From a virus: a stretch of DNA of 33,539 bases. The translations under genes and the position numbers were made by a program. The DNA lies in IMG/VR virus record IMGVR_UViG_3300032236_000062, positions 1-33,539 of that record. One strand, given 5' to 3'. The notes under the pieces are model-generated. The model made no database searches and was not told the DNA's origin. It was given only the letters and a program-made list of their open reading frames with translations. The stretch's first letter is position 1. Each line of letters begins with the position of its first letter. Positions 21,652-27,440 of this stretch are shown in pieces.

Positions 21652-21692
21652 TTTTCTATCCCTTTATTTAACACTGCTCATGCAGTAACTAC

Positions 21693-21721
21693 AGAATAAT
21701 TTAGTTTTCTAAAGTATGCAA
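21693..21721 (-). promoter_or_regulatory. Leftward promoter with operator dyad between -35 and -10
   Basis: On the minus strand TTGCAT (21716-21721), 17 bases, TATTCT (21693-21698). The spacer contains the dyad TTTAG-TTTT-CTAAA (21700-21713). The spacer differs by one base from that of the rightward promoter at 25246-25274. It would drive 21651-20456. A protein on the dyad would block RNA polymerase directly. Confidence 0.75.
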
Positions 21722-23818: not shown

Positions 23819-24055
23819 ATGGACACATTAAAACTTACTCACGATCAGTTAATAAATATTTTAGGCGGTACTAAAAACGTGGCTAAGATGGCTAAGGTTA
23901 GTCAGGCTGCGGTTACTCACTGGCGAACAACCGACATTCCTGAAGGTCAGATGATTAGGTTAGCTGCCGAATTAGAAAAAAAATCGCATGGATTAATTAC
24001 TCGCAAGGGTTTATTTCCAACAACTTATAAAATGATATGGCCTGAATTAGAATGA
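23819..24055 (+). CDS. Cro/CI-like helix-turn-helix regulator
   Basis: 78 residues. LINILGGTKNVAKMAKVSQA then AVTHWRTTDIPEGQ (about 10-43) is a Cro/YdaS-type helix-turn-helix with the recognition helix near SQAAVTHWR. There is no cleavage or oligomerisation domain, so it is Cro-like rather than a full CI. It is the likely ligand of the dyads found in four promoter regions. It is transcribed divergently from the exonuclease operon and overlaps the next gene by 4 bases (ATGA). Confidence 0.82.
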   Translation: MDTLKLTHDQLINILGGTKNVAKMAKVSQAAVTHWRTTDIPEGQMIRLAAELEKKSHGLITRKGLFPTTYKMIWPELE

Positions 24056-24822
24056 AACCACATATTGTAGCTTTTGGTGGTGGTGTAGATAGTACGGCTA
24101 TGATTTTAGGTCTTTATGAACAAAAACGACCAATTGATTTAATACTTTTTGCTGATACTGGCGGAGAACGACCCGAAACATATCAACATATTAAAAACTT
24201 TAGTAATTGGTTAACAAACAAAGGTTTACCTGAAATTACTATTGTTAAAAAAGTGCTTAAAGATGGAAGTTTAGAAACACTTGAACAAGAATGTCATAGA
24301 AGGCACAATTTACCATCTATTGCGTATGGATTTAAATCTTGTTCACAAAAACACAAAATAGCCCCACAAGATAAATTTTTAAACCATTGGCAACCAGCTA
24401 TTGATTGGTGGAAAACAGGCGATAAATGTGTTAAATACATTGGTTATGATGCTGGAGAGTCCCATAGAGCTGACAACGCAGATAAACGTAATGATCCCAA
24501 ATATACTTATGAGTACCCATTAATAGAATGGCAATGGGAAAGAGAAGATTGTTTAGATATTATTGCAAAATACAATATAAATAATGTAGGTAAATCAGCG
24601 TGTTTTTTTTGTCCTTCATCACGACCAAAAGAAATTGTTGATTTATATGAAAAACATCCTGATTTAGCACAAAGAGCTTTGGACATTGAAAAACAAGCAG
24701 AGTTAACTAGCATAAAAGGTTTAGGTAGAAATTATGCGTGGTCAGATGTAATTATGATGCACAAACAACAAATAATTTTACCTTTTGTTGGTTTTGATGC
24801 ACCTTGCGAGTGTACAGAATAA
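24052..24822 (+). CDS. PP-loop enzyme, PAPS-reductase / DndC-like family
   Basis: 256 residues. PP-loop GGGVDS at 9-14 binds ATP. LFADTGGERPETY at 32-44 and a CSQKHKIAP segment with Cys97 follow, then GYDAGESHRA at 131-140 and CFFC at 184-187. The fold is that of PAPS reductase and the DNA-phosphorothioation protein DndC. The cysteines could hold an iron-sulfur cluster or relay sulfur. True PAPS reductases end with a different Cys motif, so simple sulfate reduction is doubtful. Translated with the regulator by ATGA overlap, which is unusual for a metabolic gene. The substrate is unknown. Confidence 0.8.
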   Translation: MKPHIVAFGGGVDSTAMILGLYEQKRPIDLILFADTGGERPETYQHIKNFSNWLTNKGLPEITIVKKVLKDGSLETLEQECHRRHNLPSIAYGFKSCSQKHKIAPQDKFLNHWQPAIDWWKTGDKCVKYIGYDAGESHRADNADKRNDPKYTYEYPLIEWQWEREDCLDIIAKYNINNVGKSACFFCPSSRPKEIVDLYEKHPDLAQRALDIEKQAELTSIKGLGRNYAWSDVIMMHKQQIILPFVGFDAPCECTE

Positions 24823-24837
24823 AAATTCTGTTATACT
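24814..24837 (+). promoter_or_regulatory. Extended -10 promoter and inverted repeat for candidate RNA
   Basis: TGTTATACT (24829-24837) is an extended -10 element with no clear -35. It overlaps a perfect inverted repeat, ACAGAAT-AAAA-ATTCTGT (24814-24831), that spans the stop codon of the PP-loop gene. Transcription would start near 24843-24845. Confidence 0.55.
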
Positions 24838-24842
24838 ACTTA

Positions 24843-24972
24843 TGCAGAGTGAGATCTGTTTGTTAAAAAGTTCAGTAAATATAGACCCTTTTGGGTTGTT
24901 CTGAGTGTTTACTAAATGAACTGAACCATTTATTAAGCAATCTCACCTTAGAGCAACCCAAAGGGGTTTTTC
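24843..24972 (+). ncRNA. Candidate structured phage RNA ending in a terminator
   Basis: CCCTTTTGGGTTGTTCT (24886-24902) pairs with AGAGCAACCCAAAGGGG (24950-24966) as a 17-bp helix with two G-U pairs, followed by TTTTT (24967-24971). The 47-nt enclosed segment has its own hairpin, TAAATG (24913-24918) with CATTTA (24927-24932). Two further helices compete or interleave: GTGAGAT (24849-24855) with ATCTCAC (24940-24946), and GTTCAGT (24870-24876) with ACTGAAC (24920-24926). An extended -10 promoter lies upstream and no ORF is present. It is either a discrete regulatory RNA or a leader that switches termination. Confidence 0.6.
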
Positions 24973-25220
24973 TATTTCTGTCGTACTCCAAACGATATTA
25001 AGAACCTACATGGGTTGCGTGGAAGTAAACATAGGCTAATCCTTCACCCGATTGCAAGCCTCGTGAACTTAAATGGGTATCACACAAGATATAGGGACAA
25101 CGGTGAGACAAGACCTATATTCGATTGAACATTATCTTCGGAAGCATTAGTTTAGGTTCAACTACTTAAATGGATGGAGGCTAATCACCCTTGGGGTATC
25201 TATTCTTAAAATTAATGTAT
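24973..25220. other. Gene-free region with repeats and hairpins
   Basis: No convincing coding frame on either strand. It holds two copies of ACTTAAATGG (25067-25076, 25164-25173), two of GGCTAATC (25034-25041, 25179-25186), an ATATAGG...CCTATAT inverted repeat around 25090-25120, and a TTGAAC...GTTCAA pair enclosing CTTCGGAAG (about 25124-25162). A half copy of the upstream dyad (TAGGGACAA) is at 25092-25100. It could be a second structured RNA, a replication origin or a decayed insert; I cannot tell which. Confidence 0.4.
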
Positions 25221-25274
25221 TAGGGAAACTACCTATAAAAAAGAGTTGATTACTTTAGAAAACTAAACTATACT
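25221..25274 (+). promoter_or_regulatory. Rightward early promoter with two dyads
   Basis: TTGATT (25246-25251), 17 bases, TATACT (25269-25274). The spacer contains the perfect dyad TTTAG-AAAA-CTAAA (25254-25267). Ten bases upstream of the -35 lies TAGGGAAACTACCTA (25221-25235). Both elements and their spacing match the leftward promoter at 21693-21747. It would drive the replication/recombination operon from 25305 onward. Confidence 0.8.
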
Positions 25275-25304
25275 GTCTTTACTTAAACAGAAAGTGAGAT
25301 AGAA

Positions 25305-25466
25305 ATGAACGATAAAGAACTAATCAAAATGCTAGAAGAAGAATGTGAAGCATTAAGAAGACAATTAAGAGACTGCCATTTATACATGACAGATACTCAA
25401 AAATGGAAAATGGCTCGTGATAACGCTAATATTCAATACGATATTAGAGTTGAAAGGTGCGACTAA
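25305..25466 (+). CDS. Small coiled-coil early protein (53 aa)
   Basis: 53 residues from the ATG at 25305 to TAA 25464-25466. The helical N-terminus (ELIKMLEEECEALRRQLRDC) is a likely coiled coil. It is the first gene after the operator promoter. The upstream GTGAGATAG is a moderate ribosome-binding site. The stop overlaps the next ATG (TAATG). Function unknown. Confidence 0.65.
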   Translation: MNDKELIKMLEEECEALRRQLRDCHLYMTDTQKWKMARDNANIQYDIRVERCD

Positions 25467-25701: not shown

Positions 25702-25884
25702 AGTTTTGTACCATATGGAACATTAACTTTTTGTAAAAATTGTGGCGAACAAAATCCTTATCATCGTGAACTAACTGATGAGGAAATAGAAGAAGTGGCA
25801 AAACCATATTGTGATTTACAAAATTGGGTTGTTGATAAACATGAATTTGCAAGAGCAATACTAAAGAAAGCGAGTGAAAAATGA
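25696..25884 (+). CDS. Small protein with Cys pair, between repeat junctions
   Basis: 62 residues. LTFCKNCGEQNPYHREL contains C-x-x-C at 13-16, a possible zinc knuckle. LTDEEIEEVAKPYCDLQNWV and FARAILKKASEK follow, a pattern common in small phage proteins. Both ends lie in the 23-bp direct repeat, so it may have been gained as a cassette or be lost by recombination. Function unknown. Confidence 0.65.
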   Translation: MTSFVPYGTLTFCKNCGEQNPYHRELTDEEIEEVAKPYCDLQNWVVDKHEFARAILKKASEK

Positions 25885-26261
25885 CTTTTGATATATTTTG
25901 GAGTAAATATCCTCGTAAGATTGCTAAACGCATGGCTCGTGAAGTTTTTAACCGTATGCCTAAAGAAGATCAAGAGATGGCATTAAAGGCCATAGACACC
26001 CACGTTAAACATTGGAACGTAGAAGGTACAGAAATACAGTTTATACCCCACGCAACGACTTGGTTACGTCAGGGCAGGTTTGAAGATGAAATTGTTTTGC
26101 AAGTGGTTAAGGGTAAAGAATGGCACGAAACGTCAACAGGTCTAATTGAAAAAGGTCGGGAGTTTAATCTTGACCCCAGTCAGTTTCAACACTTTTATCA
26201 GTTTAAAGAGGCCGTACATCAAGCTGTTAAAGGTAATGTTATTAATGTTAAGTTTGGGTAA
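25881..26261 (+). CDS. Replication-organiser-like protein (phage O-type C-terminal domain)
   Basis: 126 residues. It opens with FDIFWSKYPRKIAKRMARE, the F-x-x-F/W-x-x-Y-P-x-K signature of phage replisome-organiser proteins (lambda O or DnaD-like relatives). HATTWLRQGRFEDE at about 53-66 follows, also typical. It probably helps bring host replication enzymes to the phage origin. It is short and lacks a clear origin-binding domain. The origin may be in the gene-free region upstream. Confidence 0.72.
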   Translation: MTFDIFWSKYPRKIAKRMAREVFNRMPKEDQEMALKAIDTHVKHWNVEGTEIQFIPHATTWLRQGRFEDEIVLQVVKGKEWHETSTGLIEKGREFNLDPSQFQHFYQFKEAVHQAVKGNVINVKFG

Positions 26262-26837: not shown

Positions 26838-27144
26838 TGCGATTAATTTTATTTATACGCACAAAGACGCGTATGCTAAAGCCAAAGGTCAATTAGCCCA
26901 GTTAGAAGCGTTTAAATCATCGTTAAAAGCGATTCAAATGCAACAGAGTACACAGACATCCATATCAGGTAAAGAAATGGATGCGTACGCTTCTGAAGAA
27001 TATCAGGCACTATGCAACGGTATAGGCGCAGCTACTGAACAGGTTGAATCGTTACGTTGGGCATTGGAGTCTGCTAAGATGCGCTTTCAGGCATGGCAAA
27101 CAGAATCGGCTAACAATCGTCAGATTGAAAAATTTACAATATGA
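26809..27144 (+). CDS. Conserved early phage protein next to Ref/RusA
   Basis: 111 residues, helical. The centre and end, AYASEEYQALCNGIGAATEQ then VESLRWALESAKMRFQAWQ and NNRQ, are a widespread phage pattern. The family nearly always sits next to Ref or RusA nuclease genes, so it may assist recombination or DNA processing. ATGA overlap with the Ref gene. Confidence 0.75.
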   Translation: MNEKDYDPHDAINFIYTHKDAYAKAKGQLAQLEAFKSSLKAIQMQQSTQTSISGKEMDAYASEEYQALCNGIGAATEQVESLRWALESAKMRFQAWQTESANNRQIEKFTI

Positions 27145-27440
27145 AGAAAGCAGAAAAACAATATTATGGAAAAGTTGCACGACTGGGATGTATTTTGTGT
27201 AAATCCGTACTTGGCTACGATGATACGCCATGTGAAATCCATCATATCAGACGGTATGGAGGAAAAAGAAGTTTCGCACCAGTTATCGGATTATGCCCTG
27301 AACACCACAGGGGAGATACTGGTATTCACACACTTGGCAAGCGATTCGAATCTCGCTATGGAGTTGACGAGCAAGCCTTACTTGAACTTACATGGAAGCT
27401 CTTAAATGTTGACCCTGAGTTGGTATCCGAAGGAACTTAA
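27141..27440 (+). CDS. Ref-family HNH nuclease (recombination enhancement)
   Basis: 99 residues. Metal ligands Cys17 and Cys20 (GCILC), the double His34-His35 in CEIHHIRR, and CPEHH at 52-56 match the Ref family of HNH endonucleases (P1 Ref cuts at RecA-formed displacement loops). The N-terminal basic tail is short. It likely makes targeted breaks during phage recombination together with the exonuclease and RusA. Start is fixed by ATGA overlap; its end overlaps RusA by 35 bases. Confidence 0.85.
   Translation: MKKAEKQYYGKVARLGCILCKSVLGYDDTPCEIHHIRRYGGKRSFAPVIGLCPEHHRGDTGIHTLGKRFESRYGVDEQALLELTWKLLNVDPELVSEGT

Follow-up and report, generated by a model that had tools for sequence, protein, structure and literature searches.

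A phage RNA whose shape is kept while its letters change hints at a new type of RNA switch in phages of freshwater bacteria

Short RNAs that end at a terminator or act on termination have been described for several phages. In phage lambda the promoter pR', the short 6S RNA and the terminator tR' precede phage genes that are expressed upon antitermination, for which the Q protein is needed at the promoter; we know of no covarying pseudoknotted RNA in this system. The put RNA of phage HK022 is a sequence-conserved two-hairpin antitermination element without a terminator of its own, while the pRNA of phi29-type phages serves the ring packaging ATPase and makes intermolecular loop pairings. In phage P4, the CI RNA pairs with seqA and seqC. 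The attenuation of the P4 leader with CI RNA is also mentioned in the available part of a study on IsrK, an RNA of the Gifsy-1 prophage (PMC4825925). According to the same part, IsrK is made from its own promoter and carries a Rho-independent terminator, beyond which part of the transcripts continue into a stable RNA and genes located downstream, and acts on translation of the downstream antirepressor mRNA (PMC4825925).

The RNA described herein, designated RNA1, was analysed in a virus record of 33,539 bases (hereafter the window, meaning the whole stretch), of which the large terminase is about 41-44% identical to terminases of Pelagibacter and Methylophilales phages and matches ordinary large terminases (phrog_2). 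RNA1 shares with the lambda system the order of promoter, short RNA, terminator and phage genes. As in P4, a short leader RNA stands before replication genes and RNA pairing may decide on premature termination, but the P4 pairing is that of CI with seqA and seqC, whereas the conserved pairings of RNA1 are internal. With HK022 put it has in common that an RNA structure of a phage early operon would govern termination, but put conserves sequence whereas RNA1 conserves architecture. Like RNA1, IsrK is made in a phage from a promoter of its own, ends in a terminator and lies before a second stable RNA; compared by description, the difference is that a pairing between a 5' hairpin loop and the terminator is not described in the available part of PMC4825925. 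A Cro-like gene is located directly upstream of the RNA1 locus in 95 of 167 loci, and the position of RNA1 may thus be likened to that of cro-tR1 in lambda.

The RNA1 copy in the window extends from 24844 to 24981 (Table 1) and is one member of a phage RNA family. No plus-strand ORF of at least 40 amino acids crosses it, the adjacent plus-strand ORFs ending at 24822 and beginning at 25305, in good agreement with the ORF-free segment originally predicted from the letters of the window. Both complementary pairs of that original prediction, GTGAGAT/ATCTCAC and GTTCAGT/ACTGAAC, are present, herein called H1 and H2, both covary in relatives, and they interleave with the terminator helix (T) in the predicted order, 1-2-T5'-2'-1'-T3'. 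The predicted terminator with its U tract was also found, but its helix is not of 17 bp: it consists of 22 pairs including G-U (24884-24905/24947-24968), or 23 when A24883-T24969 is included, and a scan for consensus terminators finds a short version at 24955-24968. The minimum free energy (MFE) of RNA1 is -52.1 kcal/mol (z = -6.59), and none of 200 shuffled sequences was as good. Hairpin I, the 5'-end hairpin P1 and a second conserved RNA starting at 24982, designated RNA2, are elements beyond those predicted.

Table 1. Features of the RNA1 locus and neighbouring genes in the window
Feature	Position	Strand	Remarks
Cro-like gene (P22_Cro/YdaS-like)	23819-24055		scores just below Pfam cut-offs
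PAPS-reductase-like gene	24052-24822		upstream of RNA1
-10 promoter element TGTTATACT	24829-24837	+	hexamer TATACT 24832-24837; TG 24829-24830
P1, 5'-end hairpin	24844-24847/24856-24859	+	GCAG/CTGT; loop carries H1 5' strand
H1 5' strand	24849-24855	+	GTGAGAT; partner 24940-24946
H2 5' strand	24870-24876	+	GTTCAGT; partner 24920-24926 in loop of hairpin I
T5', 5' arm of terminator helix	24884-24905	+	partner 24947-24968
Inner hairpin I	24906-24939	+	24906-24918/24927-24939; loop holds H2 3' strand ACTGAAC, 24920-24926
H1 3' strand	24940-24946	+	ATCTCAC; immediately 5' of T3'
T3' arm and U tract	24947-24971	+	intrinsic terminator; U tract 24967-24971
P0 3' strand	24977-24981	+	TCTGT; after U tract; complementary to 24844-24848
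RNA2, class W	24982-25206	+	conserved structured RNA; 3' end approximate
Sigma-70-like promoter of next gene	25246-25274	+	TTGATT-17-TATACT; promoter scan
Replication-initiation-like gene	25881-26261		phrog_270; among early genes downstream of RNA1 and RNA2

After search of the whole window against Rfam 15, no family was detected at its gathering score, the best sub-threshold match scoring 26 bits where 94 are required, and a search at a permissive E-value gave chance-like matches only. The expectation that RNA1 does not belong to a known RNA family was thus upheld by the Infernal/Rfam check, with 0 matches to RNA1 at the gathering score; in an Rfam scan of 16 RNA1 loci, RF02932 alone was reported, within RNA2, and none in RNA1. 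BLAST of the locus against isolate-phage records gave no host-assigned relative. The sole convincing BLAST relatives were two uncultured Manatee Spring genomes, MW202753, which carries RNA1 at 66.5 bits with R1, our covariance model of RNA1, plus an RNA2-like stretch, and MW202674, in which RNA2 of class W is present and the upstream R1 match is just 16.0 bits (E = 0.67). The RNA1 pattern gave three matches in 84,980 prokaryote genomes, none with the remaining element on inspection, and there is therefore no sign of prophages carrying the exact RNA1 pattern. A description of RNA1 was not found in the literature searched, a coverage from which subscription journals were mostly absent. RNA1 represents an uncatalogued, widespread phage RNA family, absent from Rfam 15, with a fold backed by covariation as follows.

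A total of 21 loci were found through the upstream protein, several of which carry RNA1 with altered yet matching helices. In addition, we searched IMG/VR DNA with two patterns, one for the promoter and 5' end and the other for the 3' arm of the terminator, with at least 120 matches each. The terminator-arm pattern gave 126 places with 83 distinct sequences among the matches listed (alignment A1); one place without recognisable 5' start was dropped from the homologue set, and 82 places matching the promoter/5'-end pattern without the second pattern were left out of the analysis. In the first homologue set, among the matches listed, the longest Watson-Crick run was at least 6 for H1 in 80 of 81 cases with its own partner as compared with 321 of 5952 after partner swapping, and for H2 in 65 of 81 as compared with 332 of 6316; H1 alone was represented by 20 helix types. 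For the 83 homologues among the matches listed, pairing of H1 was seen in 99.1% of cells, and 6 of its 7 pairs show two-sided changes; the corresponding values are 97.4% over 22 pairs (5 with two-sided changes) for the terminator helix, 96.9% (8 of 13 pairs) for hairpin I and 100% for P1, where changes are one-sided only.

For H1, T and I taken together, a standard pair was found in 97.5% of cells of alignment A1. Kinship among sequences inflates covariation counts, but the control with slid partners preserves relatedness, and the cells with two-sided changes numbered 388 as compared with 112 (sd 14) after shuffling and 26-53 after sliding; the covariation score was 0.345 versus 0.130 shuffled and 0.038-0.067 slid. 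Two measures were less clear-cut, the pairs with two-sided changes (19 versus 15.6 shuffled) and the further pair types (45 versus 47.9 shuffled). At two terminator pairs GU, as read on the plus strand, is found in 83 and 81 of the 83 sequences. The covariation in related phages by which the prediction was to be checked is thus present in H1, H2, T and I, well above swapped, shuffled and slid controls, and strongly backs a structured phage RNA: RNA1 is a real, structurally conserved phage RNA.

The helix P0, between the 5' end and the bases after the U tract, is paired in 97% of cells, 2 of which show two-sided changes. In 127 copies of RNA1 type A, its third pair is A-T in 100, G-T in 14, G-C in 13 and A-C in 0, and the neighbouring pair is formed in 70% as compared with 55% after shuffling (shuffled maximum 66%). 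P0 as a general element of all RNA1 types was rejected, because no P0 could be recognised in the types of unrelated sequence. The small self-hairpins of the terminator arms, S5 and S3, are 95% paired but with zero two-sided changes, and are not claimed.

RNA1 types unrelated in sequence keep the same plan: they begin with a hairpin whose loop can pair with the bases that immediately precede T3', and continue with a stem of about 23 bp and a U run. Across RNA1 types, a generic Watson-Crick run of at least 6 for H1 was found in 171 of 177 distinct copies, against about 9% after partner swaps, and the terminator arm is 22-26 nt long in 117 of 123 distinct copies and 23 nt in 92; the parser used for both counts required a run of at least 4 T, and the U tract is not independent there. 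P1 is present in other types with different letters, while H2 is unclear by eye in several. When the unrelated types were compared for a riboswitch pocket, no common unpaired sequence was detected by eye. The constancy of its shape across many phages of freshwater bacteria, despite changing letters, suggests that RNA1 is an RNA switch of a new kind.

A -10 hexamer (at least 5 of 6 matches) is located just upstream of RNA1 in 91 of 95 distinct homologue upstream sequences, as compared with 10.5% of shuffled ones, and its spacing to RNA1 is 6 nt in 81 of the 95. The hexamer is also present in 63 of 67 loci collected without any promoter term in the search pattern. The TGn extension was found in just 18 of 95 homologues, and in 11 of the 67 promoter-blind loci. 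Thus, for the extended -10 promoter predicted before RNA1, the -10 element is borne out by the homologues but a conserved extension is not. The promoter is missing from our consensus promoter scan because the scan demands a -35 box.

The U tract is followed by a conserved CTGC, and RNA2 begins immediately behind it. Class W, to which RNA2 of the window belongs, covaries, with two-sided changes at 13 of 22 consensus pairs in 47 aligned sequences, although the single-sequence fold of the window copy (24985-25304) is unremarkable (z = -0.50). The class is also found at 1431-1695 of locus L001. Class-W RNA2 matches MW202674 along 107 nt with 76% identity, and the stretch is annotated there as a small hypothetical CDS. 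Since the next gene has its own sigma-70-like promoter, RNA2 does not have to serve as its leader.

RNA2 falls into at least five classes unrelated to one another, and 98 distinct combinations of RNA1 with the next 60 bases were divided into W (32), beta (24), gamma (22), delta (17) and epsilon (3), the classes being set by their first bases with Rfam confirmation for beta alone. Beta is RF02932 (Betaproteobacteria-1 RNA), typed in Rfam as an sRNA gene and reportedly originating from a 2017 paper; it scored 92-112 bits (gathering 49.4) in 6 of the 16 loci scanned (L018, L049, L069, L145, L167 and L170). RF02932 has no match in the window (1-33539), so that RNA2 of the window is not this family; RF02932 is one class of RNA2 partner, distinct from RNA1 and from the class in the window. 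No text on its function was found in the literature searched, and this orphan family now gains a setting, downstream of RNA1. The folding z-scores were unremarkable for beta (0.05) and gamma (-0.18) and reached -2.56 for delta, and therefore structure is not claimed for gamma, delta and epsilon. In gamma (L027, from 10563) and delta (L010, from 5456), RNA1 is followed by a conserved stretch of non-coding sequence, about 200-290 nt in length, that has no Rfam match at the gathering score; both are possibly new RNA families. In L153, L173 and L071, a T-rich stretch (AGGAAAGAGAAAACACCAGTTTTCTT...) follows RNA1 in place of the usual RNA2 classes.

The linkage of the two RNAs was also analysed from the side of RNA2. 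Patterns for RNA2 only, without RNA1, gave 86 stretches for beta and at least 120 for W; the R1 model was run on the loci chosen in this way, and the count was made on the additional loci that had sufficient sequence upstream. An R1 match was located directly before RNA2, on the same strand and at near-constant distance, in 52 of 61 beta (RF02932) loci and in 59 of 84 W loci among the matches listed, including sequence types unlike that of the window. As judged by eye and unscored, 6 of 9 distinct loci missed by R1 in the RF02932 set and 11 of 22 in the W set resemble the RNA1 architecture. Loci without RNA1 include L295, L297, L298, L299, L333, L343, L375 and L381, in which a promoter-like box similar to TAATAT, TAGTAT or TAAGAT abuts RNA2; a plain hairpin without U run is found where RNA1 would be in L263, L267 and L336, and L231 carries a simple terminator. 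RNA1 immediately precedes RNA2, and does not stand alone, among the loci that were examined from both ends. The two RNAs make up a cassette in the order promoter, RNA1 and RNA2, with RNA1 as its first and optional half. One 44-kb contig, IMGVR_UViG_3300047557_000594 (L069 and L077), carries two cassettes of RNA1 and RF02932-class RNA.

After folding of the 83 transcripts cut before T3', H1 was contained in the predicted MFE structure of 81 (mean probability 0.94; 0 of 83 with the strand shuffled), and an H2-like pairing and a pairing of the 3' strand of hairpin I with the leader were each contained in 75. In the full-length nested MFE structures, the terminator was formed in 67 of 83 and H1 in 16, indicating that two alternative folds exist. 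Helix M, between the leader and the 3' strand of hairpin I and filling the gap between H1 and H2, was rejected, with no covariation support (own 4.02 versus swapped 3.98). As none of the bases of H1 and H2 belongs to the terminator, coexistence as a pseudoknot is possible and mutual exclusion is not required; of the predicted choice between pseudoknot and competition, coexistence is therefore allowed, while in the predicted nested folds H1 and H2 do exclude the terminator. As judged from predicted folds and covariation, an intrinsic terminator follows the promoter and an alternative pairing is able to precede it, a layout that points to the attenuator function originally proposed.

In the best-supported reading, which we consider an even bet, RNA1 acts in cis as a leader whose intrinsic terminator is conditional, interposed between an early promoter of the phage and RNA2. 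From this we infer where transcription starts and stops, in which order the RNA folds in vivo and how the switch works. Transcription would start at about 24844, and P1 and then H1 and H2 would form during emergence of the RNA, before T3' exists, the leader hairpin looping T5'. If H1 and H2 persist, the terminator of about 23 bp, or two helical turns, could not wind and the polymerase would read into RNA2; if they yield, T and hairpin I would form, and transcription would stop at about 24971 with release of an RNA of about 130 nt. A topological block is suggested because H1 closes a loop containing T5' and the 23-bp helix must wind two turns with the polymerase at the other end. In the read-through RNA, the 5' GCAGA would form P0 with the UCUG[CU] located beyond the U tract, closing RNA1 as a domain apart from RNA2; since the P0 partner is transcribed in the read-through RNA only, this suggests for type A that read-through matters. 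RNA1 would be a clean system for asking whether termination can be governed by a pseudoknot through topology as opposed to competing bases. More tentatively, freshwater phages may carry a two-part cassette in which a topological switch, defined solely by its three-dimensional plan of a 5' hairpin loop locked onto the top of a two-turn terminator helix, stands before at least five interchangeable structured RNAs; as the sequences diverge freely, the phages would swap both switch type and RNA cargo.

The main rival to the conditional terminator is that RNA1 is the product itself, a compact, nuclease-resistant small RNA acting in trans on the host or the phage, and that RNA2 is a separate RNA reached through leaky read-through. 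The -10 box and terminator of its own, the length of about 130 nt and the very stable fold agree with such an RNA, and phage small RNAs of like layout are known, for example IsrK of Gifsy-1 as described in the available part of PMC4825925. We regard this as rather unlikely, however: no conserved unpaired seed candidate is visible, the unrelated types keep the architecture only, and RNA1 was located directly before RNA2 whenever a locus was examined from both ends.

The near-constant stem of about 23 bp across unrelated sequences, the closure of RNA1 by P0 in type A, the covariation of RNA2 as well and the nearby replication-initiation-like gene would also be in agreement with RNA1 and RNA2 being one folded RNA or an oligomer, for instance structural or related to replication, in which H1 and H2 possibly pair between molecules, covariation being unable to separate intra- from intermolecular pairing, and the hairpin is architectural. 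This is improbable, since a run of T adjoins the base of the stem in all RNA1 copies listed, which is the signature of an intrinsic terminator, and some loci keep RNA2 without RNA1. There is still less to be expected from a put-like element for processive antitermination on RNA polymerase, placed in the early operon where cro-tR1 would be: the location after the Cro-like gene and before early replication genes would suit it, but put acts via a conserved sequence, which the RNA1 types do not share, and RNA1 itself ends in a terminator. A long inverted repeat could act in DNA, but a DNA-level or chance structure without RNA function is hardly credible in view of the G-U pairs fixed on the plus strand, the covariation, the consistent -10 box and the large excess over shuffled and slid controls.

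Some additional elements were observed in the window, in which ARAGORN detected 0 tmRNA or tRNA genes over the whole length. A 38-nt element occurs in inverted orientation at 25246-25283 and 21684-21721 (84% complementary), holds a TTTAG..CTAAA palindrome together with a sigma-70-like promoter, and is possibly the operator/promoter of two early operons. A gene similar to HNH/AP2 homing endonucleases lies between structural genes (1561-2043), and a protein similar to RecA-dependent nucleases is encoded in the early region (27141-27440).
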